From an uncultured Eubacteriales bacterium (GTDB lineage Bacteria > Bacillota > Clostridia > Oscillospirales > Oscillospiraceae): a stretch of 64,000 bases of DNA. This document shows positions 14,098 through 60,515 of the stretch, one piece after another. The stretch covers positions 1,054,001 to 1,118,000 of the forward strand of contig LT599017.1 in assembly GCA_900079765.1 (NCBI GenBank), written 5' to 3'. A program made the translations under genes and the position numbers. Within the stretch, counting starts at the first letter, position 1. Each line of letters opens with the position of its first letter. The notes beneath the pieces are model-generated. The model was given only the letters and a program-made list of their open reading frames with translations, made no database searches and was not told where the DNA came from.

Positions 14098-14130
14098 CCT
14101 CCGTCTCAATCAGCTAAATGAGACACAGCA

Positions 14131-14169
14131 GGGAGGAGAGGCATATTTTTGCCTCTCCTCCCTTTATAT
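14131..14169 (+). terminator. terminator after the amylase gene
   Basis: GGGAGGAGAGGC (14131-14142) and GCCTCTCCTCCC (14151-14162) form a 12-bp stem followed by TTTATATT. Confidence 0.88.
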
Positions 14170-14245
14170 TGTGGACAAACGAAGTCCGTCAGCCGGAGCT
14201 GTCAAACTTGGATAAGCCAAAAAATATAAAAAGGAGAAATACCTA

Positions 14246-14274
14246 TTGACAAATAAAAGCGGGGGTGTTATTAT
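14246..14274 (+). promoter_or_regulatory. consensus sigma-A promoter of the sulfur/nitrogenase-like operon
   Basis: TTGACA (14246-14251), a 17-base spacer and TATTAT (14269-14274). It precedes two leader-peptide/terminator units and then the YezD-like gene. It is the only near-consensus promoter I see in front of the block running to 26868. Confidence 0.8.
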
Positions 14275-14329
14275 ACCTATAAACCAATTACTGTTATAGG
14301 TTTAAGAGCTGAGAGGAGGGTGAACACAA

Positions 14330-14449
14330 ATGAGAAACTATTTCCTTAATTTGCTGAGGAGTAATTTTCGATGTGGACGAATGCTGCCTTCCCGGACGAT
14401 CATATGGCCGGGTGCTTTATTGCGCCCATCGTTCACCTTCAATAAGTGA
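14330..14449 (+). CDS. leader peptide 1 (39 codons) of a transcription attenuator
   Basis: A short ORF about 55 bases after the -10 box, with GGAGG upstream, encoding 39 residues beginning MRNYFLNLLRSNFRCGRM. Its single Cys codon (TGT, 14372-14374) lies 15 bases before the segment TTCCCGGAC (14389-14397). That segment can pair with GTCCGGGAG (14472-14480), the left arm of the terminator just downstream. A ribosome stalled at the Cys codon would leave this antiterminator free, and a moving ribosome would cover it. The geometry matches that of leader 2, which is why I regard this as a regulatory ORF. Confidence 0.55.
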   Translation: MRNYFLNLLRSNFRCGRMLPSRTIIWPGALLRPSFTFNK

Positions 14450-14472
14450 AACGTAACATGGCCATTTGTCAG

Positions 14473-14506
14473 TCCGGGAGCTGTTAAAGCTGTCCCGGAT
14501 TTTTTG
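14473..14506 (+). terminator. attenuator terminator 1
   Basis: TCCGGGA (14473-14479) pairs with TCCCGGA (14493-14499), followed by a run of six T. It sits between leader ORF 1 and leader ORF 2, before any structural gene, as in transcription attenuation. Confidence 0.8.
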
Positions 14507-14599
14507 TTGCCCAAACAAACGATGAAGATGTACTGAAAAGCGTCTGCCGGCTCGGGAGAGCGGTATGGCTGCCGGATGGTGCGGGAAGGGAAAAGAACC

Positions 14600-14674
14600 A
14601 TGTGTATTTGCCGTATGATGTGTTGTTGTGAAAACCAAGCAATCCATGTCCCCTGCCCGCAGATGAGAAGATAA
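14600..14674 (+). CDS. cysteine-rich leader peptide 2 (24 codons)
   Basis: A 24-residue ORF starting MCICRMMCCC, with six Cys in all and three consecutive TGT codons at 14621-14629. GGGAAGGG lies upstream of the ATG. Cys clusters of this kind are the mark of leader peptides that sense charged tRNA-Cys. The segment CCATGTCCCC (14644-14653), 15 bases after the Cys run, can pair with GGGG and CATGG of the following terminator (14703-14716), so a stall would prevent termination. Full translation to the stop at 14674 would cover that segment and allow termination. The peptide itself probably has no function. Confidence 0.72.
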   Translation: MCICRMMCCCENQAIHVPCPQMRR

Positions 14675-14699
14675 TTGCGTCATTTGTGCGGAGTAAGAG

Positions 14700-14738
14700 A
14701 GCGGGGTGTACCATGGACTGTGGTCACCCCGCTTTATT
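14700..14738 (+). terminator. attenuator terminator 2 before the YezD-like gene
   Basis: AGCGGGGTG (14700-14708) pairs perfectly with CACCCCGCT (14725-14733), followed by TTATT. Its left arm is contested by a sequence inside the Cys-rich leader ORF. Between this and 14904 there is a further small hairpin (TCAGCAAA with TTTGCTGA, about 14833-14856) but no gene. Confidence 0.75.
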
Positions 14739-14903
14739 ATGCCTGACAGAGCGTGTAAACGGCGTGGCGTTTATTTCATAGGCTCAAATATCCTGTTTCA
14801 TCATAGTGCTGACTATATACAATGGAGGCGCTATCAGCAAAGGTATCTTTTTGCTGACAAGTACCTTTTATCATATAGGTCAATTCCTATGGGAGGGAAT
14901 ATT

Positions 14904-15077
14904 ATGGGAGAAGAGAAGAAAGGCGGGGGGCAGAAACAGGCTATCTCGCTCCAGCAGCTGCGACAGATCCAGGAACTTGCTGAGACCATCCGTTACGGCT
15001 CCATCACCTTGGTGTTTCAGGATGGTATCCTGATACAAATAGATAAGAGCGAGAAAATTCGTATTCCTAAAACATGA
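14904..15077 (+). CDS. YezD-like small protein (DUF2292)
   Basis: A 57-residue protein. Residues 25-55 match the DUF2292/YezD pattern (ETIRYGSITLVFQDGILIQI, then KSEKIRI). The family has no proven activity but is often found with sulfur-assimilation genes. The ATG at 14904 is chosen because GGGAGG lies 7 bases upstream; a longer frame from 14706 runs through the attenuator and is unlikely. It is the first structural gene after the two attenuators. Confidence 0.82.
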   Translation: MGEEKKGGGQKQAISLQQLRQIQELAETIRYGSITLVFQDGILIQIDKSEKIRIPKT

Positions 15078-15104
15078 AAATCGACTGGATAAACCGGAGG
15101 TTTT

Positions 15105-15608
15105 GTGTGCGGCGAGATGCCGTATGCAGGACTTCCGTTTTTTTATGATCTGCTGGCATGGCAAAGAGAGGGGAAGATAGGTACGAAAAACAAGAACAAC
15201 ATCGTTGGCGTTGCCCTTTTGGTATTGGGTCTGCTGTTGAGCGCCGGTACGGCGCGGCTGTTTCCTGTCTGCGGCCCCACAGAAAATGGGGCATGGATGA
15301 AGTGCCACTGGTCGAGCCAAGCGATCATCGGCGTTGGAGTGGTGCTGGTGGTGCTGGCCGCGGCCTATCTGCTGTCGCCGCGGCGACTGATCCGCGCGGG
15401 AATCAGCCTTGCGGTGCTGCCCATAGGCCTTTTGGCAGCGGCAATTCCGAATGGACTGATCGGCCTTTGCGGAAACGCTGAGATGCAGTGCCGCGCCACT
15501 ACCCAGCCCGCCGTCACCATCCTCAGTATCGCGGTTGCCGTTCTTGGCGCAGCCAATGCATTCTGGTTGTTGGGAGCGGAGTATAAAGGGAAGGCGTCAG
15601 ACCAATGA
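15105..15608 (+). CDS. DUF4418 membrane protein
   Basis: A membrane protein of 167 residues with four predicted spans and three conserved Cys-containing loops (FPVCGP, WMKCHWS, MQCRATTQP), the DUF4418 pattern. These proteins are regularly encoded with an FtsX-type permease and an ABC ATPase, as here. The best start is the GTG at 15105 after GGAGG, although the conserved part only begins about 25 residues later (NKNNIVGVALLVLG), so the N terminus is uncertain. It overlaps the next gene by four bases. Function is unknown; it may be a third component of the exporter. Confidence 0.78.
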   Translation: MCGEMPYAGLPFFYDLLAWQREGKIGTKNKNNIVGVALLVLGLLLSAGTARLFPVCGPTENGAWMKCHWSSQAIIGVGVVLVVLAAAYLLSPRRLIRAGISLAVLPIGLLAAAIPNGLIGLCGNAEMQCRATTQPAVTILSIAVAVLGAANAFWLLGAEYKGKASDQ

Positions 15609-16825
15609 ACTCGAAACAAACTGACAGATCTATTTTACGCCGTCTGCCGCGTCTCAATCTGCGAAACCGCCCCTACCGTACCGCCGGTTTGGTGCTGCTG
15701 GTCACATGCTTGGCCTTCGCGTTGTTTGGCGGATCGGTGCTTGCGGTGAGCTTGCAGCGGGGGCTGCGCAGCGTCGAAGCACGCTTTGGGGCCGATCTGA
15801 TCGCTGTTCCGCTGGGGTACGACACCGGGCTGGAGTCCATCCTGCTAAAAGGAGAGCCCAGCTATTTCTATTTGGATAAATCTTATCTGGAGGAGATAGC
15901 CCGGATCGAGGGGGTGGGACAGGTTTCGGCGCAGTTCTATCTGACCTCCACGGGGTCGGATTGCTGCGACCTGCCGGTTCAACTGATCGGCTTTGACCCA
16001 TCCACCGATTTTTCTGTCCAGCCGTGGATCCGGCAAAGCTATGACGGCGACTTGACCGCTGGCGCGGTGCTGGTGGGCGGCGACATCGAGGTTGAAAACG
16101 GAAAGTCTCTGACCTTCTTTGACCGGGAGTATCTTGTAGCCGCCCAACTGGAGAAGACCGGCACGGGCCTGGATAACGCCGTCTACGCCAACATGGATAC
16201 TCTGCGGGATCTGATGGAGGCCTCACAAGAGAAGGGCTTCTATTTTCTGGATGATTCAGACCCGGACAGCGTCATCTCTTCCGTGCTGATCAAAACGGCC
16301 GAGGGCTATGACGCCGAGACCGTTGCCCGCAACATCCGTTTCAAGCTGGATGGCTTGCAGCTGGTGAAAACACAGAGCATGATTTCCGGCATTGGGGAGA
16401 GCTTAAGCGCTTTCTCAAGCCTCCTGTATGTCTTCGTTGGGGTGTTCCTGCTGCTCTCGCTGGCGATGCTGACCGTCGTGTTTTCCGTCACCGCGAATGA
16501 GCGTAAGAGGGAGTTCGCCATCTTGCGGGTGCTGGGTGCGACCCGTAAGCGCCTTGCGTCCCTGCTGCTGGCAGAATCGCTGCTGGTCAGCGTCAGCGGG
16601 GGACTGCTGGGGACTGCGCTGGCGGCGCTGGTGGTATTCCCCTTCCATGTAGCCATAAGTCAGCGCTTGGGCTTGCCCTATCTGGCGCCCGGCGGGTTGA
16701 GCATTATCCGGCTGCTGTCAATGAGCCTTGCGGTAACCTTTGCGGCGGGACCGCTGGCGGCGGCATTTTCGGCCTGGCGTATCAGCCGTGCGGAAACCAG
16801 CCTGACGTTGCGGGAGGGGGAATGA
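15605..16825 (+). CDS. FtsX/MacB-type ABC transporter permease
   Basis: A 406-residue permease with one N-terminal span, a large extracytoplasmic domain (about residues 50-265) and three C-terminal spans. NERKREFAILRVLGATRKRLASLLLAES is the characteristic FtsX/MacB cytoplasmic segment (quoted in two parts of a continuous stretch starting near residue 298). It is coupled by ATGA overlaps to the DUF4418 gene before and the ATPase after. Relatives work as mechanotransmission systems, lipoprotein transporters or exporters. The substrate here is unknown. Confidence 0.85.
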   Translation: MNSKQTDRSILRRLPRLNLRNRPYRTAGLVLLVTCLAFALFGGSVLAVSLQRGLRSVEARFGADLIAVPLGYDTGLESILLKGEPSYFYLDKSYLEEIARIEGVGQVSAQFYLTSTGSDCCDLPVQLIGFDPSTDFSVQPWIRQSYDGDLTAGAVLVGGDIEVENGKSLTFFDREYLVAAQLEKTGTGLDNAVYANMDTLRDLMEASQEKGFYFLDDSDPDSVISSVLIKTAEGYDAETVARNIRFKLDGLQLVKTQSMISGIGESLSAFSSLLYVFVGVFLLLSLAMLTVVFSVTANERKREFAILRVLGATRKRLASLLLAESLLVSVSGGLLGTALAALVVFPFHVAISQRLGLPYLAPGGLSIIRLLSMSLAVTFAAGPLAAAFSAWRISRAETSLTLREGE

Positions 16826-17490
16826 ACATGCTGAAAGCCAATGGTGTAAGCAGGACCTTCCGGCGTGGAGCAGGTACGGTTTCGGCGGTGCAGGGCATCA
16901 CACTGGAGCTGCCATCCGGGCAGCTTACGGCAATCGTCGGCCGGTCGGGCAGTGGAAAGAGCACCCTGCTGAACCTGCTGGCCGGACTTCTGACTCCTAC
17001 GGAAGGGACCGTATTGCTGGATGGGCAGGAGCTGTACCGGCTGCCGGACGCAGAGCTATCCCGTCTGCGCAGCCAGAAGATCGGCGTGATTGCGCAGGGG
17101 CAGACGGCGCTGCAGAACCTTACCGTACTGGAAAACATTATACTGCCGTGCGCGTTGTACCCCGGGGTGAGCGACGCTGCCGGCCGGGCGCAGGCTCTGC
17201 TGGAGCGGGTGGGTATCTCACGGCTCGCAACAGCCAGACCGGCAAGCCTTTCAGGCGGCGAGCTGCGCCGCATGGCCGTTGCCCGCGCGCTGATCCGACA
17301 GCCCTCGGTTATTTTGGCGGACGAACCGACAAGCGATCTTGACGGCGAAAATACGGCGGCCGTTATCGCGCTGCTTCGTCAGGCCGCCGACCAGGGAAGT
17401 GCGGTATTGCTTGTCACCCACGAAACGGACTGCCTGAAAAGCGCTGATGAGGTCTACCGTATGGACGGCGGTATGTTAAGCAATATTTGA
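16822..17490 (+). CDS. ABC transporter ATPase partner of the FtsX-type permease
   Basis: A 222-residue ATPase with Walker A GRSGSGKST (about 38-46), signature LSGGELRR, Walker B VILADEPTSDLD and a switch His in LLVTHETD, as in the LolD/MacB group. It overlaps the permease gene by four bases. There is no strong terminator in the 166 bases after it, so transcription may continue into the importer genes. Confidence 0.9.
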   Translation: MNMLKANGVSRTFRRGAGTVSAVQGITLELPSGQLTAIVGRSGSGKSTLLNLLAGLLTPTEGTVLLDGQELYRLPDAELSRLRSQKIGVIAQGQTALQNLTVLENIILPCALYPGVSDAAGRAQALLERVGISRLATARPASLSGGELRRMAVARALIRQPSVILADEPTSDLDGENTAAVIALLRQAADQGSAVLLVTHETDCLKSADEVYRMDGGMLSNI

Positions 17491-17656
17491 TATTTTCTGC
17501 CCACGAATTTCCCGGGCAGTCAATATAAGTGACATTACGGAAAGAGGGTTGTTGATTATCTTATAAAATACGAGAGAGGGTTCGGCCTACAGAGCGTTTT
17601 ATTACCATGCAACTCAAGAGACCAAACAATCAAAAATTTTTAAGGAGTGAAAGCAA

Positions 17657-18715
17657 TTGAAACGGAAAACTTTACTTACGGCTGTCGCAGGTGTGCTGGC
17701 GCTGTCCACTCTGCTTTCGGCCTGCGGAAACGGCGCCGCCCAAAGCTCGGGCAGTCCGGCCCCCGGCGGGAGTGACGCTAGCACCCCCGCCTCCAAGATC
17801 AAATGGCAGATCACGATCCCCGGTAAGAGCGGCTCTCTCTGCAACGCGCCGACGTACATTGCCTATGAAAAGGGGTTCTTTGCCGAGGAGGGTATTGACG
17901 TTGAACTGATTACCGCCGACTTTGAGGCCAAAAAGGTTGGCCTGGCCAACGGCACCATTGCCACAATCAACGGAGACTTCCAGTATTTCCCCTCTATCGA
18001 GGCCGGTGTGGAGATGACCGTTGTTGAGGGCCTGCATCAGGGCTGCATCAAGCTCAATGTGCTGCCGGACTCCGACATTCAGGGGGTGGAGGACCTGGTC
18101 GGCGCGACCATCGCCGTTGATGAGATCGGCGGGACTCCCTATCAGGTCGCCCTTCTCTGGCTAGCGCAGAATGGTATCTCCGCGGACCAGGTGACCTTCC
18201 TGCCCTTCAACGATGGCGCTTTGGAGCTGGAGGCCCTCTATAAAGGTGACGTCGACGTCGCCGCGCTGTGGGATCCGCTCGCGACCACCTCAGTGGAAGA
18301 GGGGCGCGTCCGTACCATTCTGGACATCTCCAAGGATGAGCCGTTTGCCGGACATTACTGCTGCTTCCTGTACGCCTCCAACAAGGTTCTGAAGGAGGAC
18401 CCGGAGCTGATCGCCGCTGAACTGCGCGCCTACCATAAGGCCCAGAACTGGATTTATGAGAATCCCGAAGAGGCCGTTGAGCTTGTGACGGAGAAACAGT
18501 ATGTGTCCATCGAGGACCACGATCTGGCGGTCTCTCTGGTCAAGTCCTATGGCTATCCCTCCACCGAGGACTATGAGAAAAACGCGGTTGACGTTGCGGC
18601 AGACGTCGAGTACTTCGCGCAGGCACTGTATGACATCGGTTTCCTGACCACCAAGCCCGAGGAATATGTCAAGTCGGCTTACACCGAAGTTGACCTGACG
18701 CTTGGGCAAAAGTAG
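17657..18715 (+). CDS. ssuA: SsuA/TauA-type ABC transporter substrate-binding lipoprotein
   Basis: A 352-residue NMT1/SsuA-like binding protein with a lipoprotein signal peptide (lipobox LSAC, Cys23) and a Gly/Ser-rich linker. The domain motifs NAPTYIAYEKGFFAEEGIDV and VGATIAVDEIGGTPYQ are typical of proteins binding sulfonates, taurine, nitrate or similar small anions and heterocycles. The start is a TTG at 17657 with AAGGAGTG upstream. The partner permease and ATPase follow. Because the next genes encode a nitrogenase-like enzyme and CysK, I infer the ligand to be a sulfur compound reduced inside the cell; this is not shown by the sequence. Confidence 0.82.
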   Translation: MKRKTLLTAVAGVLALSTLLSACGNGAAQSSGSPAPGGSDASTPASKIKWQITIPGKSGSLCNAPTYIAYEKGFFAEEGIDVELITADFEAKKVGLANGTIATINGDFQYFPSIEAGVEMTVVEGLHQGCIKLNVLPDSDIQGVEDLVGATIAVDEIGGTPYQVALLWLAQNGISADQVTFLPFNDGALELEALYKGDVDVAALWDPLATTSVEEGRVRTILDISKDEPFAGHYCCFLYASNKVLKEDPELIAAELRAYHKAQNWIYENPEEAVELVTEKQYVSIEDHDLAVSLVKSYGYPSTEDYEKNAVDVAADVEYFAQALYDIGFLTTKPEEYVKSAYTEVDLTLGQK

Positions 18716-18726
18716 CTTTCCGTTTC

Positions 18727-18840
18727 GGGATGGCCGGGCCATTGTGCAGGAAGAGATCCTGTTTCCCTCCTGCTGCCGCGCGCCCATTTGTCCACATTAA
18801 AAATGGACCGGGGGCGGCGCCGAAAATGGCCGGCCATCCC
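18727..18840 (+). other. structured intergenic segment between binding protein and permease genes
   Basis: GGGATGGCCGG (18727-18737) and CCGGCCATCCC (18830-18840) are perfectly complementary and enclose a further GTCCA/TGGAC hairpin (18790-18808). No T-run follows, so it is not a simple terminator. Such stem-loops after binding-protein genes often protect the upstream message and lower expression of the permease genes; that role is inferred. Confidence 0.5.
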
Positions 18841-18883
18841 CCCAATATTGACCTGCTCTGTGGTCAGAAAGCGAGGGATTCTC

Positions 18884-19957
18884 TTGAGTAAAACACTTGT
18901 AAACGAAGCAACAGAGTTAACTGCCGAACTGGCCATAGAGCAAGCGAACTGGCGGCGTGAGCAGACGGTAGCCACGCCGAAGTTACTGCGCTCCATCCTG
19001 TTTACCACAGGCGGATTTGCCATCGCAATCCTATTCAACCTGCTGTTTCCTCAAATCGCAGAGGGCCTGAAAGACGCGCGGTATGCGTTCGGGCCCCTGA
19101 CGCTCGACCGTAACGGTTTCTATCATCTGGTGCTGCTGGCCATTATCCTGATTTATATACTGCTGGGCGTGCAAGCTTACTTTACCCCTCATAAGCGGTC
19201 TCGCTATGTCAAGCAAGCGGCTTTTCGTTTCGCTCTGGGCATTGCGCTGGCCTTGTTCGACCTGGTGGGCACGAAACTTAAGCTCACACCCCAGCCGTTT
19301 TTCCCCGGCCCGTCCCAGATCTTGGAGTCCTTTCTGATAGAAGGTCCTTATATCGGGACAAATATTCTCTACTCCCTGCGGCTGTTCGGCACCGGCTTTC
19401 TGCTGGGGGTTTTGCTGGGCGTGACCACCGGAGTTCTGATCGGCTGGTTCCCCAAGATCTATTACTGGGTCTATCCGGTGCTGAAAATCACCGGCGTGAT
19501 TCCGGCTGTGGCCTGGATGCCGTTTGCGCTCACCCTGTTTCCTACGCCGTTTGCGGCGGCTTCGTTCCTCATTGTAATCTGCTCCTGGTTTCCGGTGGCC
19601 TCTCAGACCTCTTTCGGGATCCAGACTACCCCCAGGGCACAGTTTGAGGCGGCGCGCACCTTGGGAGGCAACACAGGGTATCTTGTGTTTCATGTGGCGG
19701 TTCCGCATGCCATGCCGCAGATTTTCTCCGGCATCACCACCGCCTGCGCGGGCTCCTTCACCTGCCTGGTCATCGCCGAGATGATGGGTCAGCCCGGCGG
19801 CCTGGGCTATTACATCAATGTCGCCAAGGTGTGGGCCGCTTACTATAAAATATTTGCCGCCATTCTGATCATGGCAATTCTCTTCAGCCTGATTCTGGCG
19901 GTCCTGGGCGCGATCCGCGACTATGTGCTTCGCTGGCAAAGGGGGCAGTTCAAATGA
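18884..19957 (+). CDS. ssuC: SsuC-type ABC transporter permease
   Basis: A permease of about 357 residues. The N-terminal region (residues 1-110) has extra membrane segments not found in short SsuC proteins. The C-terminal 250 residues are the typical domain with the EAA loop (FEAARTLGGNTGYLVFHVAVPHAMP) and FTCLVIAEMMGQPGGLGYYI. I chose the TTG at 18884, which follows GAGGG; a TTG at 18788 would extend it into the hairpin region and is less likely. It overlaps the ATPase gene by four bases. Confidence 0.83.
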   Translation: MSKTLVNEATELTAELAIEQANWRREQTVATPKLLRSILFTTGGFAIAILFNLLFPQIAEGLKDARYAFGPLTLDRNGFYHLVLLAIILIYILLGVQAYFTPHKRSRYVKQAAFRFALGIALALFDLVGTKLKLTPQPFFPGPSQILESFLIEGPYIGTNILYSLRLFGTGFLLGVLLGVTTGVLIGWFPKIYYWVYPVLKITGVIPAVAWMPFALTLFPTPFAAASFLIVICSWFPVASQTSFGIQTTPRAQFEAARTLGGNTGYLVFHVAVPHAMPQIFSGITTACAGSFTCLVIAEMMGQPGGLGYYINVAKVWAAYYKIFAAILIMAILFSLILAVLGAIRDYVLRWQRGQFK

Positions 19958-20748
19958 GCGATACCATCCTTGCGCTAAAGGACGTAAACCGCACTTACAT
20001 TGATGGCGACGACCCCGCCGAAGCAAGCGTTGTAGAGGCGCTGAGAAACATCAATCTGGAAGTCAGACGCGGTGAATTTATCACGATCATCGGCTCCTCC
20101 GGCTGCGGGAAGACCACCCTGCTTCGCCTGATCGGCGGGCTGGATCAACCTCAGGGCGGGCAGGTGCTGCTGGACGATACCCCGATCACCGGCCCCGACC
20201 CGCAGCGGGGGTATGTGTTTCAGCAGGGAAGTCTGTTTCCGTGGCTGACGGTGGAGCAGAACATCGCCGCCGGTCTTAAGGCCCGCCGCGTATATCATGA
20301 ACAGAAGGATAAGGTGTCCTACTACATCCATTTGATCGGATTAGACGGCTTTGAGAAGGCCTACCCCCATCAAATCAGCGGGGGTATGGCGCAGCGTGTG
20401 GCAATTGCCCGCGCCCTCATCAACGACCCGGCGGTGCTGCTGATGGATGAGCCAATGGGGGCGCTGGATTCCTTTACCCGTGCCGATTTGCAGGATAAGC
20501 TGCTGGAGATCCGTGCGGGGAATGACGCAACTATGGTTCTGGTCACACACGATGTGGATGAGGCCATCTATCTCTCCGACCGTATCGTCATCATGACGCC
20601 CCGCCCCGGTAAGATCAGCGAGGTGTTGGAGGTTGCGCTGCCCCACCCGCGGGACCGCGGCGGCATTCAGTTTCTCAACCTCCGCCGGGATATCATGGAC
20701 CGTTTCCATTTGGCCAGCGCCGAGCCTCAGCCCGAATATTTCATATAA
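19954..20748 (+). CDS. ssuB: SsuB/TauB-type ABC transporter ATPase
   Basis: A 264-residue ATPase with Walker [10 protein letters not shown] (about 46-54), Q-loop [11 protein letters not shown], signature ISGGMAQR, Walker [13 protein letters not shown] and H-loop [11 protein letters not shown]. The FPWLTV and MGALDSFTR features are shared by SsuB, TauB and NrtD. It energises the importer formed with the two preceding genes and is separated by 29 bases from the nifB-like gene. Confidence 0.9.
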
Positions 20749-20777
20749 GCTTTGTCCAACCCGAGGAGGGGTTTTTT

Positions 20778-21683
20778 ATGTCTGAAGTAAACGAGAGCGT
20801 TGAGGCCGCGACGTGTGACCCTTTGGCCCATGTGGCAAACCGCCACCCCTGCTTTGGAGGCGGCTCCAATATAAACAGGGGCAGGGTGCACCTCCCCGTC
20901 AGCCCGGCTTGCAATATCCAATGCGCGTTTTGTAACCGCACCCGGAATGAGACGGAGCAGCGGCCGGGCGTGACCTCGCAGCTCCTTTCACCGGAAGAGG
21001 CGGCGGACATTGTGGAGCGCGCGCTTGCGCTCTGTCCGGAGATCACGGTCGCGGGTATCGCCGGACCGGGAGATACGCTTGCGACCCACCATGCGATCGA
21101 CACATTTCTGCTGATCCAGGAGCGGCATCCCGAGCTCATCAACTGCCTGAGCACAAACGGGCTGCTGCTGGAGCAGTACGCGGAGGAGCTGATCGCGGCG
21201 GGAGTCAAAACGATCACAGTGACCGTCAATGCCGTCGATCCGGAGATTTTAAAGCACATCTGTCTCTGGGTCGTGAAGGACGGCAAGAAATATGAGGGCG
21301 GGGAGGGGGCGTCCATCCTGATTGAGGCGCAGAAGAGGGGCATTGCCAAAATCTCCGCGTTGGGCGCGCTGGTAAAGATCAATATGGTCCTCGTGCCCGG
21401 CGTCAACGACGGCCATGTCGAGGAGGTCGCGCACACGGTGAAGGAGCTGGGCGCCAACTTCATCAACATCATACCGCTCATTCCGCAGTACAAACTCTCG
21501 CACCTCCGGGAACCCGGCTGTGAAGAGCTGCACCGGGCGCGCGAAAAAGCGGAGGCCTATCTCCCCGTTTTCCGGCACTGCCAGCGCTGCCGCGCCGACG
21601 CCTGCGGCATCCCCGGTAAGGTCGATGTGGCCGACAAGCTCTATGCGATCCGGCAGGCGGCGACCACATTCTCACACGGATAA
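20778..21683 (+). CDS. NifB-like radical SAM cofactor-assembly protein
   Basis: A 301-residue radical SAM protein matching the NifB core. HPCF (23-26) corresponds to the N-terminal cluster ligand region. PACNIQCAFCNR holds the SAM-cluster cysteines C45, C49 and C52. CQRCRADACG near the C terminus (C268, C271) matches the CxxCRADA element of NifB. NifB joins two [4Fe-4S] clusters with a carbide to make NifB-co, the 8Fe core of nitrogenase-type cofactors. The NifX-like domain that is fused in many NifB proteins is a separate gene here. With no NifEN in the window, the product may be used directly by the NifDK-like enzyme; this is inference. Confidence 0.87.
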   Translation: MSEVNESVEAATCDPLAHVANRHPCFGGGSNINRGRVHLPVSPACNIQCAFCNRTRNETEQRPGVTSQLLSPEEAADIVERALALCPEITVAGIAGPGDTLATHHAIDTFLLIQERHPELINCLSTNGLLLEQYAEELIAAGVKTITVTVNAVDPEILKHICLWVVKDGKKYEGGEGASILIEAQKRGIAKISALGALVKINMVLVPGVNDGHVEEVAHTVKELGANFINIIPLIPQYKLSHLREPGCEELHRAREKAEAYLPVFRHCQRCRADACGIPGKVDVADKLYAIRQAATTFSHG

Positions 21684-21697
21684 CGGGGGGAGATCCA

Positions 21698-22917
<1,220 letters not shown>

Positions 22918-22928
22918 GGAGGGCAAGT

Positions 22929-23867
<939 letters not shown>

Positions 23868-23879
23868 GGAGGAAAGCAG

Positions 23880-24011
23880 ATGAGCATCTCCAAAATACTG
23901 ACGCAGCTTACCCGCCCGTGCTTTGAGACGGCGGCGGAGAGCGGCCTGCCGCAAGCCGGACCGGCGAGTTCCAGTGGAGCCGGCTTTGAGCGGGGAGGGT
24001 GTGAGCTATGA
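23880..24011 (+). CDS. unrecognised 43-residue protein coupled to the nifK-like gene
   Basis: This short ORF has a near-perfect ribosome site (AAGGAGGAAAG, 5 bases before the ATG) and overlaps the nifK-like gene by ATGA, so it is very likely translated. The peptide begins MSISKILTQLTRPCFETAAE and ends in a Gly/Ser/Ala-rich stretch with a second Cys (GGCEL). I recognise no family. It could be a small accessory subunit, or the remnant of an N-terminal extension whose main job is now translational coupling. Confidence 0.6.
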   Translation: MSISKILTQLTRPCFETAAESGLPQAGPASSSGAGFERGGCEL

Positions 24012-25348
24012 GTAAATTTGTGGACCGGCCCCGGTATGGGTGCGCCATGTCCGGCGCGCTGGCTCTCCTGCGGGCCATTCCGAGAACCATTCCCATCATT
24101 CACTCCTCCACCGGCTGCGGCTTCAACTGCTATAACGGAACCAACGCAGGCTCCGGCTACCTGGGCGGCGGATACTGTGGCGGCGCGGCGACACCCAGCA
24201 GCAATGTGGTGGAGCGCCACGTTGTCTTCGGCGGCGAGGAGCGGCTGCGGGAACAGATCGAATCGACCCTTGAGGTGATGGACGGCGATTTGTATGTCGT
24301 GGTCACCGGCTGTATGGTCGAGATGATCGGCGACGACGTGCAGTCGGTGGCGCAGGAATTCAAGGACGAGGGCAGGCCGGTCATAGCGGTCAACACGCCC
24401 AGCTTTCAGGGGAATTCCTATCATGGCTACGAGCTGCTGTTCTCCGCGCTGGCGCGTGAGGTCGTACGGAAGGCGGAGGCGGTCAACCCGAAAAAAGTCA
24501 ACGTGCTCGGCCTTGTTCCCGGCGGGGATGTGTTTTATAAGGGGAACCTCCGGGAGATCAAGCGCCTCCTCTCGCTCCTCGGGCTGGAGGTCAATACCTT
24601 CATCGGAGAGGGAGAAACTCTGGACGACTTTAAAAACGCCGGGGATGCGGCGCTGAACCTTGTGTTGTCGGACATCCACGGCGTGAAGACCGCGCAGGAG
24701 TTCCAGCGGGTTCATAAAACCCCCTACATCACCACCGGCCTTCCCATCGGATATCTCCAGACGGCAGAATTTCTCCACCAGGTGGCGAAGCACCTCCAAA
24801 TCTCCGCTGAAACGGTGGAAACGGTGTTACAGCGGGAGCGCACGGTCTATTTTGACTACTTCGAGCGCCTGGCCGATATTTACAATGATATTGATCTGCA
24901 GCGGTATGTCGTGGTGGTTGCTGACTCCAATTACGCGCCGTCGCTGGCCCGTTTTTCCGCCGACGAGCTGGGCTGGCTGCCGGAGCTGACGGTCATCACG
25001 GACTTCCTGGAGGAGCACCATAAGGCCGCGCTGGAGAAACGCTTTCGTGGATGGGAATCCGGCCTGCGGCCTGCCGTAAAATTCGATACCGACGCCGCCT
25101 CGGTGCGGCACTATCTGAAGGAGGTCTGGCCCCGGGACCGCAACGCCCGCTATTTTGACGCGCTGGGTCCCGGCTACATTCTGGGCAGCGTCATCGAAAA
25201 GGAGCTGGCGGACGAATTCCAGTTTGATCTTCTGCCTGTGGCGTTCCCGGTGACCAACCGTATTGTCTTCAACAGGGGCTATGCGGGGATCCGCGGCGGG
25301 CTCACCCTGGCTGAAGATATCCTGGGAACCCTGGTAGCCGGCAGATAA
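24008..25348 (+). CDS. NifK-like (beta) subunit of a nitrogenase-like reductase
   Basis: A 446-residue subunit. Cys12 (RPRYGCAMSG), Cys37 (HSSTGCGFN) and Cys102 (VTGCMVEMIGDD) align by motif with the three P-cluster cysteines of NifK. SNVVERHVVFGGEERL matches the NifK TEDAAVFGG region, and PGYILGSVIEKELADEF matches its C-terminal region. Additional cysteines occur at 41 and 57. It is shorter than NifK (about 520) because the N-terminal extension is absent. The gene order K before D is the reverse of the classical operon. Substrate unknown; it is assigned beta by alignment of motifs, not by a computed tree. Confidence 0.85.
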   Translation: MSKFVDRPRYGCAMSGALALLRAIPRTIPIIHSSTGCGFNCYNGTNAGSGYLGGGYCGGAATPSSNVVERHVVFGGEERLREQIESTLEVMDGDLYVVVTGCMVEMIGDDVQSVAQEFKDEGRPVIAVNTPSFQGNSYHGYELLFSALAREVVRKAEAVNPKKVNVLGLVPGGDVFYKGNLREIKRLLSLLGLEVNTFIGEGETLDDFKNAGDAALNLVLSDIHGVKTAQEFQRVHKTPYITTGLPIGYLQTAEFLHQVAKHLQISAETVETVLQRERTVYFDYFERLADIYNDIDLQRYVVVVADSNYAPSLARFSADELGWLPELTVITDFLEEHHKAALEKRFRGWESGLRPAVKFDTDAASVRHYLKEVWPRDRNARYFDALGPGYILGSVIEKELADEFQFDLLPVAFPVTNRIVFNRGYAGIRGGLTLAEDILGTLVAGR

Positions 25349-25362
25349 GGAGGAGATAGCTC

Positions 25363-26868
25363 ATGAAACAAAATGTGGAAACCTCCGCTCCCGCGCGGGA
25401 GGAGCGGCTGCACGCCGGGATCGCCTTTGGAGGAACCTGCGGAGAGCTGCGGTGCAGTTTAAATAAGGGCGGCACCTGTCTAAGCACGCCCAACCGAGCC
25501 TTTTCAGAGACCTACGGCTGTCAGTTTACCCTGAGCCTCGGCATCATCAACACCCTCCGCAACGCCGTGGTCATCATGCACGGCCCCATCGGCTGCGGAT
25601 ACTGCTCCACTGCCACAACGGGAACGGGCAAGACATATAAGCGCCTGCGGGACCCCGGGTCCAGCGGGACCATCTGGCTCAGCTCCAACCTGGATGAGAG
25701 CGACGTCATTGGCGGCGGCGAAGAAAAGCTGAAGGAGGCCGTCCTGTTCGCCGACCGGGAATATCGTCCGGAAATCATCGTTGTGGTCAGCTCCTGCGTA
25801 CCGGCGCTGGTTGGAGACGACGTGGACGCTATTCTGGAAAACCTCCAGAGCGACACCGCCGCCAGGCTGATTGCCTGTAACTGCGAGGGATTTAAGACCA
25901 AAATCATGGCTACCGCCTATGACGCGGCCTACAACGGCATCATGAAAGGCATCACGGAGCCATACAGAGAGTGGCGGCCGCTGACGGAAAGCGACCAGGA
26001 CAGGGCGGAGCGCGAATTTCGCATCAGCCGCACCGTCAATGTGTTTAACGTCGGCTCCATGAGCCGCACCGATGAGCTGGAGCTGGAGCGCCTGCTGAAC
26101 GCCGTGGGCCTGAACGTGAACTTCCTCCCGTGCTACGCCGAGCCGGACGATTTCCAGACCAGTCTGGAGGCCGCGCTGAACGTCTCCGTCTGCGGAACGC
26201 ATGACGACTATTATCTCAAGTACCTCCGGGAGTCGTTTGGGATCCCATACCTCATCGATACCATCCCAATCGGCAAGAAGAACGTGGCCCGCTGGCTGCG
26301 GAAAATCGCGGAGTTTTTCCATCTGGAGAAGGAGACCGAGGATTTGATCGCCCTGGAAGAGGCCGCGCTTGAGGAGGGCCTTGCCCCGTTCCGGGAGAAG
26401 CTTCGCGGCAAGCGGGTCTATATTGGCGGGGGCGAGGTGCGGATTCTGGCGACCGCGTCCATCGCGCAGGACCTGGGCATGGAGATCGTTGGCCTGAAGG
26501 GGCACCATGTGGATGAATTCCTTCTGCCGCTTTTTGAGACGCTGGACAACGCGGAGGAGATCCCAATCAACATCGCCACCCAGCATCCCTTTGAGCAGGC
26601 CAATGTCATTGAGCGCGTCAAGCCGGATGTCATCATCATCCATACCGGCGGCAACAGCATCTCCGCCAAACACGGCCTGCCGCTCCTGCCTCTGTTCAGC
26701 CCGTCCATCAACTATCTGGGGTACTCCGGCGAATATGAGATGGCGCGGCGCCTGAGCCGCATCATCCGCAACCCGTCGCTCAACCGCCACCTAAGCCGGT
26801 TCTGCCCCAAGCCGTTCAAACAGAGCTGGTATCAGGAAAACCCGTTCAAATACATTAGAGACAAGTAA
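25363..26868 (+). CDS. NifD-like (alpha) subunit of a nitrogenase-like reductase
   Basis: A 501-residue subunit. The P-cluster cysteines are at Cys53 (TYGCQF), Cys78 (GPIGCGYC) and Cys145 (SSCVPALVGDD). Cys277, in ALNVSVCGTHDDYYLKYLRE, lies where NifD has the FeMo-co ligand Cys275 (LNLVHCYRSMNYI). The NifD His442 region (MHSWDYSGPYHG) reads SINYLGYSGEYE here, with Asn450 at the His position. The N terminus adds GGTCGELRCSLNKGGTC (C26, C31, C39). CNCEGFKTKI matches the VRCEGFRG of NifD. So it probably binds a NifB-co-like cluster through one Cys but is not a dinitrogen-fixing MoFe protein. The terminator at 26903 ends the operon. Confidence 0.86.
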   Translation: MKQNVETSAPAREERLHAGIAFGGTCGELRCSLNKGGTCLSTPNRAFSETYGCQFTLSLGIINTLRNAVVIMHGPIGCGYCSTATTGTGKTYKRLRDPGSSGTIWLSSNLDESDVIGGGEEKLKEAVLFADREYRPEIIVVVSSCVPALVGDDVDAILENLQSDTAARLIACNCEGFKTKIMATAYDAAYNGIMKGITEPYREWRPLTESDQDRAEREFRISRTVNVFNVGSMSRTDELELERLLNAVGLNVNFLPCYAEPDDFQTSLEAALNVSVCGTHDDYYLKYLRESFGIPYLIDTIPIGKKNVARWLRKIAEFFHLEKETEDLIALEEAALEEGLAPFREKLRGKRVYIGGGEVRILATASIAQDLGMEIVGLKGHHVDEFLLPLFETLDNAEEIPINIATQHPFEQANVIERVKPDVIIIHTGGNSISAKHGLPLLPLFSPSINYLGYSGEYEMARRLSRIIRNPSLNRHLSRFCPKPFKQSWYQENPFKYIRDK

Positions 26869-57797: not shown

Positions 57798-57898
57798 GTC
57801 TTCAATCGGTAGCTGGCGATCATAGGAAAATTCCCTTAGACCCTGTAGCTTCGCGTCCCGCGCTTTCACGCGGTTTGCCGTTTTACATGTGGGAAGAC
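57798..57898 (-). promoter_or_regulatory. c-di-GMP-I riboswitch (GEMM) upstream of the Tad operon
   Basis: Read on the minus strand: closing stem GTCTTC (57893-57898) with GAAGAC (57798-57803), then GGCAAACC, GAAA loop, GGGACGCGAAGCTAC and GGGTCTAAGG, and TATGATCGCCAGCTACCG near the 3' end. These are the conserved aptamer elements of c-di-GMP-I, including the tetraloop and its receptor; the one deviation I notice is GCGAAGC for GCAAAGC. The terminator downstream makes it a transcription switch for pilus genes. Whether c-di-GMP turns them on or off cannot be seen by eye. Confidence 0.85.
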
Positions 57899-60230: not shown

Positions 60231-60320
60231 CAAAAGTACGGCAACTGGCTGCCATAGACTTTCGTCCGTAGGCCCTTTAGCTTTGCGCCCCCGCCTTTCG
60301 GCGGGTTTGCCTTTTTCGTG
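60231..60320 (-). promoter_or_regulatory. c-di-GMP-I riboswitch (GEMM) upstream of the secreted-protein/MNT/HD-GYP/HEPN operon
   Basis: Read on the minus strand: GGCAAACC, the GAAA loop in CCGCCGAAAGGCGG, GGCGCAAAGCTA, GGGCCTACGG, and CTATGGCAGCCAGTTGCC at the 3' end. The core is close to the c-di-GMP-I consensus, including the tetraloop and receptor. A terminator follows at 60163. The AT-rich stretch 60340-60500 beyond it should hold divergent promoters for this unit and for the peptide importer, but I could not fix them. Confidence 0.88.
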
Positions 60321-60515
60321 GGGATAGATTTCTATCCGCAATTATATTAGCACGGAAATATTTCACTGTCAACCAAGATTTATATAGAAATTTATATATA
60401 TTTTTCAAAAGGGGAGTGAAAAAATCGAAACCGCACAGTTCTCTTTTGGCGAATTTTATGTTATGCTGTTAGCTATTGAAGAAAACTGCGTCGGTGTATG
60501 AGTGGAGGATGCTTT

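Follow-up and report, generated by a model that had tools for sequence, protein, structure and literature searches.

The genome of an uncultured, gut-type Eubacteriales bacterium of the Oscillospiraceae (GCA_900079765.1, a single-contig genome of 3.67 Mb) carries a likely sulfur-scavenging operon whose upstream region, located within a 64,000-nucleotide stretch of contig LT599017.1 (positions 1,054,001 to 1,118,000, referred to below as the window), contains two short leader ORFs in series, each followed by a terminator hairpin, with no structural gene between them. The promoter, inverted repeat, leaders, terminators, and operon genes described below are on the + strand of the window. A σ70-type promoter (TTGACA, 17-nt spacer, TATTAT; 11 of 12 consensus bases) at positions 14246 to 14274 is the only + strand promoter-like site in the interval from 14100 to 15000. 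Just downstream of its −10 box, at the expected transcription start, is an inverted repeat (ACCTATAA/TTATAGGT; positions 14275 to 14301), which could be a transcription factor operator; AT-rich repeats are also found upstream of several homologous operons. Leader 1 (MRNYFLNLLRSNFRCGRMLPSRTIIWPGALLRPSFTFNK; 39 aa; positions 14330 to 14449) is preceded by GGAGG at 14315 to 14319 and has a single Cys codon, Cys15 (TGT; 14372 to 14374), followed by Arg17 (CGA) and Met18 at 14378 to 14383. It is followed by a GC-rich hairpin with a T-rich tail (14471 to 14507). Leader 2 (MCICRMMCCCENQAIHVPCPQMRR; 24 aa; positions 14600 to 14674) contains six Cys residues, including the Cys8-Cys9-Cys10 run encoded by TGT TGT TGT at 14621 to 14629, and is followed by the second hairpin (AGCGGGGTGTACC/GGTCACCCCGCT; positions 14700 to 14733), which has a weak T tail (TTATTA). 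Another stem (TCAGCAAA/TTTGCTGA; 14834 to 14857), without a T run, precedes the first structural gene.

That gene (14904 to 15077) encodes a small DUF2292 (YezD/OscA-like) protein. The rest of the likely operon (15105 to 26868, same strand) encodes DUF4418, FtsX, and ABC proteins, a sulfonate-type transporter with SsuA-like, permease, and SsuB-like components, NifB-like, NifX-like, and NifH proteins, the cysteine synthase CysK, and two NifD/NifK-like subunits. In the 22060 to 26868 segment, with its embedded cysK, NifH and CysK pass their NCBIfam cut-offs, whereas the D/K-like proteins score far below those of nitrogenase; the operon resembles sulfur-scavenging nitrogenase-like systems, such as methylthio-alkane reductase, but this name rests on resemblance only. 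A small hairpin (CTGG-loop-CCGG or CCAG-AAAA-CTGG) directly followed by a longer hairpin and a T run, possibly another regulatory element, is shared by three sulfur loci: it is found in the window (15083 to 15150), in L002, a unit 1 locus preceding a flavoprotein gene (at about 1850 to 1915), and upstream of the NifH-like gene in L130, a related operon described below (here and elsewhere, L followed by a number designates a locus). In L002, the sequence between unit 1 and the flavoprotein gene (about position 1840) resembles the 3′ end of the DUF2292 gene of the window, suggesting a decayed duplicate of the leader region. Elsewhere in the window, two c-di-GMP-I riboswitches are found 2.4 kb apart on the − strand (57805 to 57889 and 60237 to 60321).

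The tandem arrangement noted in a previous sequence-only reading is confirmed, with some corrections. That reading described a consensus promoter followed by two leader-plus-terminator units and proposed that, in both units, a segment located 15 bases after the last Cys codon could pair with the left arm of the terminator. In unit 1, TTCCCGGAC (14389 to 14397) and GTCCGGGAG (14472 to 14480) form a 9-bp match. In unit 2, the segment 14643 to 14653 (TCCATGTCCCC) pairs with the region of the left terminator arm in the RNA made before the right arm. However, the last Cys codon of leader 2 is codon 19 (14654 to 14656), which lies after the pairing segment, so the proposed common geometry holds only for the Cys-Cys-Cys run. 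A generic terminator scan, limited to loops of 3 to 8 nt, listed neither hairpin, as their loops are longer, and found only a strong terminator-like hairpin of 14 pairs (14130 to 14163) at the end of the upstream amylase-type gene, just before the promoter. The arrangement is more than would be expected by chance: of 329 ORFs of 12 to 45 codons preceded by Shine-Dalgarno sequences on both strands of the window, leader 2 is the only one with six or more Cys residues, and unit 1 has homologs elsewhere. There was no Rfam match in the leader region of the window at gathering scores and none in six related loci at E values up to 1, which leaves no match to known riboswitches, T-boxes, or leaders. 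Neither leader peptide matched NCBIfam.

Unit 1 belongs to a family of leaders. A DNA search of the same genome identified two more copies, before metY and before a flavoprotein gene, and the genome has three framework leaders in all at this pattern. A degenerate pattern for NFRCGRM matched 5 of 197 genomes of the order and at least 80 stretches in a species collection, so the size of the family is a lower bound. Four loci were left out as copies of the loci in the same genome, 26 pattern matches were set aside because they lacked a start codon 33 nt upstream or lay inside a long ORF, and 2 were dropped as duplicates. This left 61 loci, including the window, nearly all of them labeled as Clostridia; as L005/L071, L026/L057, and L028/L053/L070 share their first 70 nt, these represent 57 different leader sequences. 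Of 55 loci with a readable downstream gene, 32 were classified by sequence pattern as metY, 10 as metN, and 13 as other; leader L073, of the cultured relative Flavonifractor plautii, precedes metY. Of the latter, L080 reads as metY, L050 reads as metN, one is the window, and ten were scanned against protein families. These ten, most of them sulfur-type genes, comprise three M20 amidohydrolases (that of L074 being only a fragment below the cut-off), a cystathionine synthase/lyase-like enzyme, a cystine-type binding protein, an SsuA-like protein, a YeiH-type transporter, a URO-D protein, a flavoprotein, and one protein without a family. A full-text search for the conserved motif found no paper in the library searched. 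A pattern with the NFR segment left free gave mostly unrelated matches.

Conservation in this family is at the level of the peptide, MxxxFxxLLRxN(F/Y)RxGRM. Arg10, which was not demanded by the search, is invariant in all 61 leaders while using all six Arg codons, and Leu9 (56 of 61), Leu8 (55 of 61), and Phe5 (50 of 61) are conserved with synonymous codons. Residues N12 to M18 were demanded by the search, so their identity in this set is not evidence, but the choice of codons is: although six Arg codons were allowed at position 17, all 61 leaders use CGA, which makes up 3.6 percent of Arg codons in 20 genes of the window. The fixed start likewise is not independent evidence, as it served as a filter; in a search with codon 15 relaxed, 40 of 40 leaders had it, but that start was taken wherever present, and in L151 to L153 the start, by reading, is 14 codons before Asn. 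The Arg tRNAs found in the genome (48 distinct tRNA sequences were read against 51 Rfam matches) have anticodons acg, ccg, tct, and cct, so CGA should be read by tRNA-Arg(ACG), presumably by inosine wobble.

Codons 20 to 24 of leader 1 (segment a, the left arm of the antiterminator) are complementary to the left arm of the terminator (segment c, 14471 to 14480), which alternatively pairs with the right arm (segment d, 14493 to 14507, including the T-rich tail). Nine or more contiguous a:c pairs are found in 43 of 59 sequences that have at least 200 nt and a detected hairpin. After removal by hand of four of these (L007, L009, L022, and L090), 476 of 585 cells pair in 39 deduplicated sequences (0.814, against a permuted mean of 0.732), and none of 1,000 permutations reaches this value, although permutation does not remove relatedness; ORF nucleotides 69 and 70 use T-A, A-T, G-C, and other pairs. 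For folding, L026 and L057 were removed as well, leaving 53 sequences. When RNA was folded beyond a ribosome edge placed 12 nt after the first base of the A-site codon, the antiterminator exceeded 0.5 in 52, 51, 47, 10, and 0 of 53 sequences for A-site codons 15, 16, 17, 18, and 19, respectively, and in none for later codons. In a test on the RNA made before the right terminator arm exists, with edges of +10, +12, and +14 nt, the a:c helix was kept in 52, 50, and 40 of 53 sequences at codon 17, in 48, 30, and 0 at codon 18, and in 17, 3, and 3 at codon 19, so the boundary falls between codons 17 and 19. In the window copy, the terminator probability is 0.06 at codon 17 and 0.89 at codon 18. 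The 5′ end of the conserved helix (nt 60 of the ORF) lies within a base of the edge of a ribosome with CGA17 in the A site. Without any ribosome, unit 1 of the window folds into the antiterminator, as do 40 of 53 sequences (10 fold into the terminator), unlike trp, so the default without translation would be read-through.

A pattern with codon 15 left free, applied to 230 genomes of the family, gave 44 places in 39 genomes, with no match for the reversed control pattern. Residue 15 is Cys in 15 of these leaders, Phe in 21, Asn in 5, Tyr in 2, and His in 1, and all 44 have CGA at codon 17. Of the 29 leaders without Cys15, 25 precede metY (by reading of the downstream sequence, one confirmed by HMM), one precedes a gene for a MetQ-type lipoprotein, two an amino acid ABC permease, and one an SsuA-like protein; twelve of the 29 contain no Cys at all, and seven end directly after Met18. 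Given the predominance of metY behind Phe, Asn, Tyr, and His leaders, residue 15 was rejected as a T-box-like specifier of the regulated amino acid. However, a hairpin-plus-T scan of the gaps behind these 29 leaders gave a clear terminator-like site in only 3 (L215, L260, and L264) and a doubtful one in 2 (L223 and L240), so in most of them the peptide and CGA persist without the RNA switch. L215 has Phe15 with a full attenuator before metY and the same switch, although it has Cys codons further on. L260, with Asn15 before metY, has by reading a different possible antiterminator (GGAGCCAT/ATGGCTCC) and is perhaps an independently built attenuator on the same peptide. In L234, the Phe15 leader runs in frame into the metY coding sequence, fusing the leader to the enzyme. 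In L217 and L265, the framework core is followed by a run of Cys codons (NFRFGRMCCCCC) before metY, with no terminator-like hairpin found in the gap, and three leaders of another genus in the class carry Cys-rich tails (NFRCGRMCCSCS, NFRCGRMCNSCS) before metY, with at most a weak hairpin in the gap.

For unit 2, equilibrium folding proved to be an unsuitable test: the terminator wins at about 0.9 whatever the position of the ribosome, but this is also the case for the Escherichia coli trp, thr, and leu leaders. In the pre-terminator test, segment c is held by upstream pairing at about 0.6 while the ribosome is at codons 2 to 12, at 0.4 at codons 13 and 14, and is free at codon 15; sequestration then rises again to 0.4 to 0.5 at codons 18 to 23 and is 0.24 at the stop codon. 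In thrL, trpL, and leuL, it drops in the same way after the regulatory codons. The contrast between codons 9 and 15 was reached by 2 of 300 shuffles (controls: trp, 2; leu, 3; thr, 0), but codon 15 was chosen after the profile had been seen, and the contrast between codon 9 and the stop codon was reached by 115 of 300, so support for this unit is moderate. A DNA search for unit 2 in 60 relatives found only the window. Related operons were examined in the order (8 of 345 genomes) and in the class (8 of 341 genomes): MMMCCCMMMMKTQYARRPMAVLP heads L135, MKSITMHNTYICMRMHGGFMSMCLMDNISAV heads L130, and a weaker one heads L136, each followed by a hairpin, with contrasts reached by 42, 3, and 13 of 300 shuffles, respectively. 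Most nitrogenase-like operons examined show no Cys/Met-rich leader at the threshold used: among 17 such stretches (240 kb; some may not reach the operon head) and the window, 3 of 18 (the window, L130, and L135) carry such an ORF at the operon head. The same scan gave 2 hits elsewhere on the operon strand, 2 on the other strand of those stretches, and 2 more in the window.

The tandem arrangement recurs. A scan of the gaps behind unit 1 showed that in L074 (Agathobaculum sp.) it is followed by MMCMCCMMCCENRIFGVPCLCLMR, a homolog of leader 2 (none of 5,000 residue shuffles scores as high) that keeps the Cys/Met codons, the pairing, and a similar terminator, before the M20 amidohydrolase fragment. 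Numbered from its second Met, sequestration of c is 0.97 at Cys8-Cys9, 0.54 at codon 13, 0.00 at codon 21, and 0.35 at the stop codon, a loss after the Cys run similar to that in leader 2. In L044 and L065, unit 1 is followed by a second leader of its own framework with CGA at position 17 and Cys in place of Met18 (CGA-TGT), again before an M20 amidohydrolase.

Taken together, these data favor, somewhat more likely than not, two transcription attenuators acting in series, so that RNA polymerase must pass both to reach the sulfur operon. In this view, the conserved peptide of leader 1, together with the rare CGA codon, would hold the leading ribosome with codon 17 or 18 at the decoding site when the methionine/sulfur supply, to which unit 1 is tied through its target genes, is poor, leaving segment a free to pair with c so that transcription continues; a ribosome that moves past codon 18 would cover a, allowing c to pair with d and stop transcription. 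Unit 2 would be a classical attenuator, in which scarcity of charged tRNA-Cys (and perhaps tRNA-Met) stalls the ribosome at Cys2 to Cys10. The computations establish the family and its gene context, the a:c helix, the position of the switch, the fixed peptide and CGA codon, and the recurrence of the tandem, whereas the pause at codons 17 and 18 itself, the direction of the signal (including any rise in read-through when the amino acid is scarce), and the ligand or tRNA sensed are inferred from sequence alone. The interpretation offered in the sequence-only reading is partly supported: two attenuators before a sulfur operon and, strongly, the antiterminator of unit 1 are upheld, attenuation at the Cys run of leader 2 is plausible with moderate support, and stalling at the Cys codon as the signal in leader 1 is not supported.

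Among the alternatives, it is possible, though unlikely, that codon 18 is the read-out codon, with unit 1 sensing charged tRNA-Met at AUG18, the peptide plus CGA17 making one codon enough, and the second leaders with Cys18 sensing Cys. Where it was not demanded, Met18 is kept in 16 of 17 leader-like matches (18 places less the chance match L096), the exception being the truncated L108; seven leaders end right after Met18, and the targets are mostly metY and metN. On the other hand, folding at codon 18 is ambiguous, as seen in the dependence on the ribosome edge, Met shortage would also reduce leader initiation, and there are only two Cys18 cases. The most novel possibility, also unlikely, is a one-codon translational sensor, in which an 18-residue nascent peptide plus an inosine-decoded CGA turns codon 18 (Met in most leaders, Cys in the second leaders of L044 and L065) into an interchangeable read-out of sulfur amino acid supply that can be plugged into a transcription antiterminator or used without one, and stacked in series with a Cys/Met-rich attenuator as a two-input gate. 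Classical attenuation by charged tRNA-Cys in both leaders, as originally proposed, appears doubtful for leader 1. A ribosome with codon 15 in the A site does give antitermination (52 of 53 sequences; 53 of 53 in the pre-terminator test with each edge tried), and Cys15 is kept in 9 of 10 attenuator-type members among the 40 relaxed-search leaders read, so a role for Cys in that subclass is not excluded. However, hairpins kept by relatives without the Cys codons had been named beforehand as evidence against this reading, and L215 keeps the ORF, antiterminator, terminator, and metY with Phe15; moreover, a single Cys codon does not explain the invariant peptide and CGA17. Sensing of tRNA-Arg(ICG) thiolation is very unlikely: s2C32 tRNA-Arg(ICG) is stated to be unable to wobble to CGA (PMC5372741), the tRNA-Arg(ACG) has C32, and a TtcA-like protein is present (191 bits, below the 272 cut-off), but the sign is wrong for the attenuator class, as plentiful sulfur would mean a stall and expression, and peptide conservation is left unexplained. 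That leader 1 is a functional small protein is equally improbable, as, despite strong amino acid conservation with synonymous codon change, conservation stops after about residue 22 while the tail varies in length and sequence, the ORF contains the antiterminator arm in the attenuator class, and the leaders stand ahead of sulfur genes.

Compared with the E. coli trp, thr, leu, and phe leaders, both units have a short ORF with a ribosome-binding site ahead of an intrinsic terminator, and an antiterminator exclusive with the terminator and gated by ribosome position, although for unit 2 the gating appears only in the pre-terminator test, with mixed shuffle support. Unit 2 also has a run of regulatory codons (six Cys and Met-Met), but unit 1 has none and instead has a conserved peptide, an invariant CGA codon, and a ribosome-free fold into the antiterminator; moreover, two different attenuators stand in series. 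The uORFC-8-2 motif upstream of cysS in Rhodobacterales (PMC8632094) likewise combines an intrinsic terminator with a leader ORF containing conserved Cys codons, but it belongs to another phylum and has two tandem Cys codons, usually 14 and 15, and a single target, cysS, which the leaders studied here do not match; no LLRxNFRxGRM peptide appears in the sections of that paper searched. The Cys-run leader peptides before cys operons of Mycobacterium and other Actinobacteria (PMC1262725) resemble leader 2 but are reported to lack conserved terminator hairpins, whereas unit 2 has a hairpin. Peptide-set pauses that control the downstream gene have precedents in SecM (PMC10951299) and the copper leader CruR/DUF2946 (PMC9426467). 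SecM stalls with Gly in the P site and Arg two residues before it, as leader 1 would with codon 17 in the A site, and leader 1 shows the conservation expected of a nascent chain; however, both precedents depend on Pro-ending motifs (RAGP, RAPP), with Pro in the A site, whereas the leaders read have RxGR(CGA)M, so this is a likeness in working rather than membership.

If this interpretation is correct, many gut Clostridia control methionine and cysteine genes by a leader peptide for which no description was found, in a place where riboswitches or T-boxes would be expected. A fixed nascent peptide with an invariant rare codon at the computed switch point would be a directly testable case of peptide- and codon-programmed stalling, and recurrent tandem pairs would be two-input sulfur gates. 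The family also provides a sequence signature for finding sulfur-regulated genes in gut genomes.
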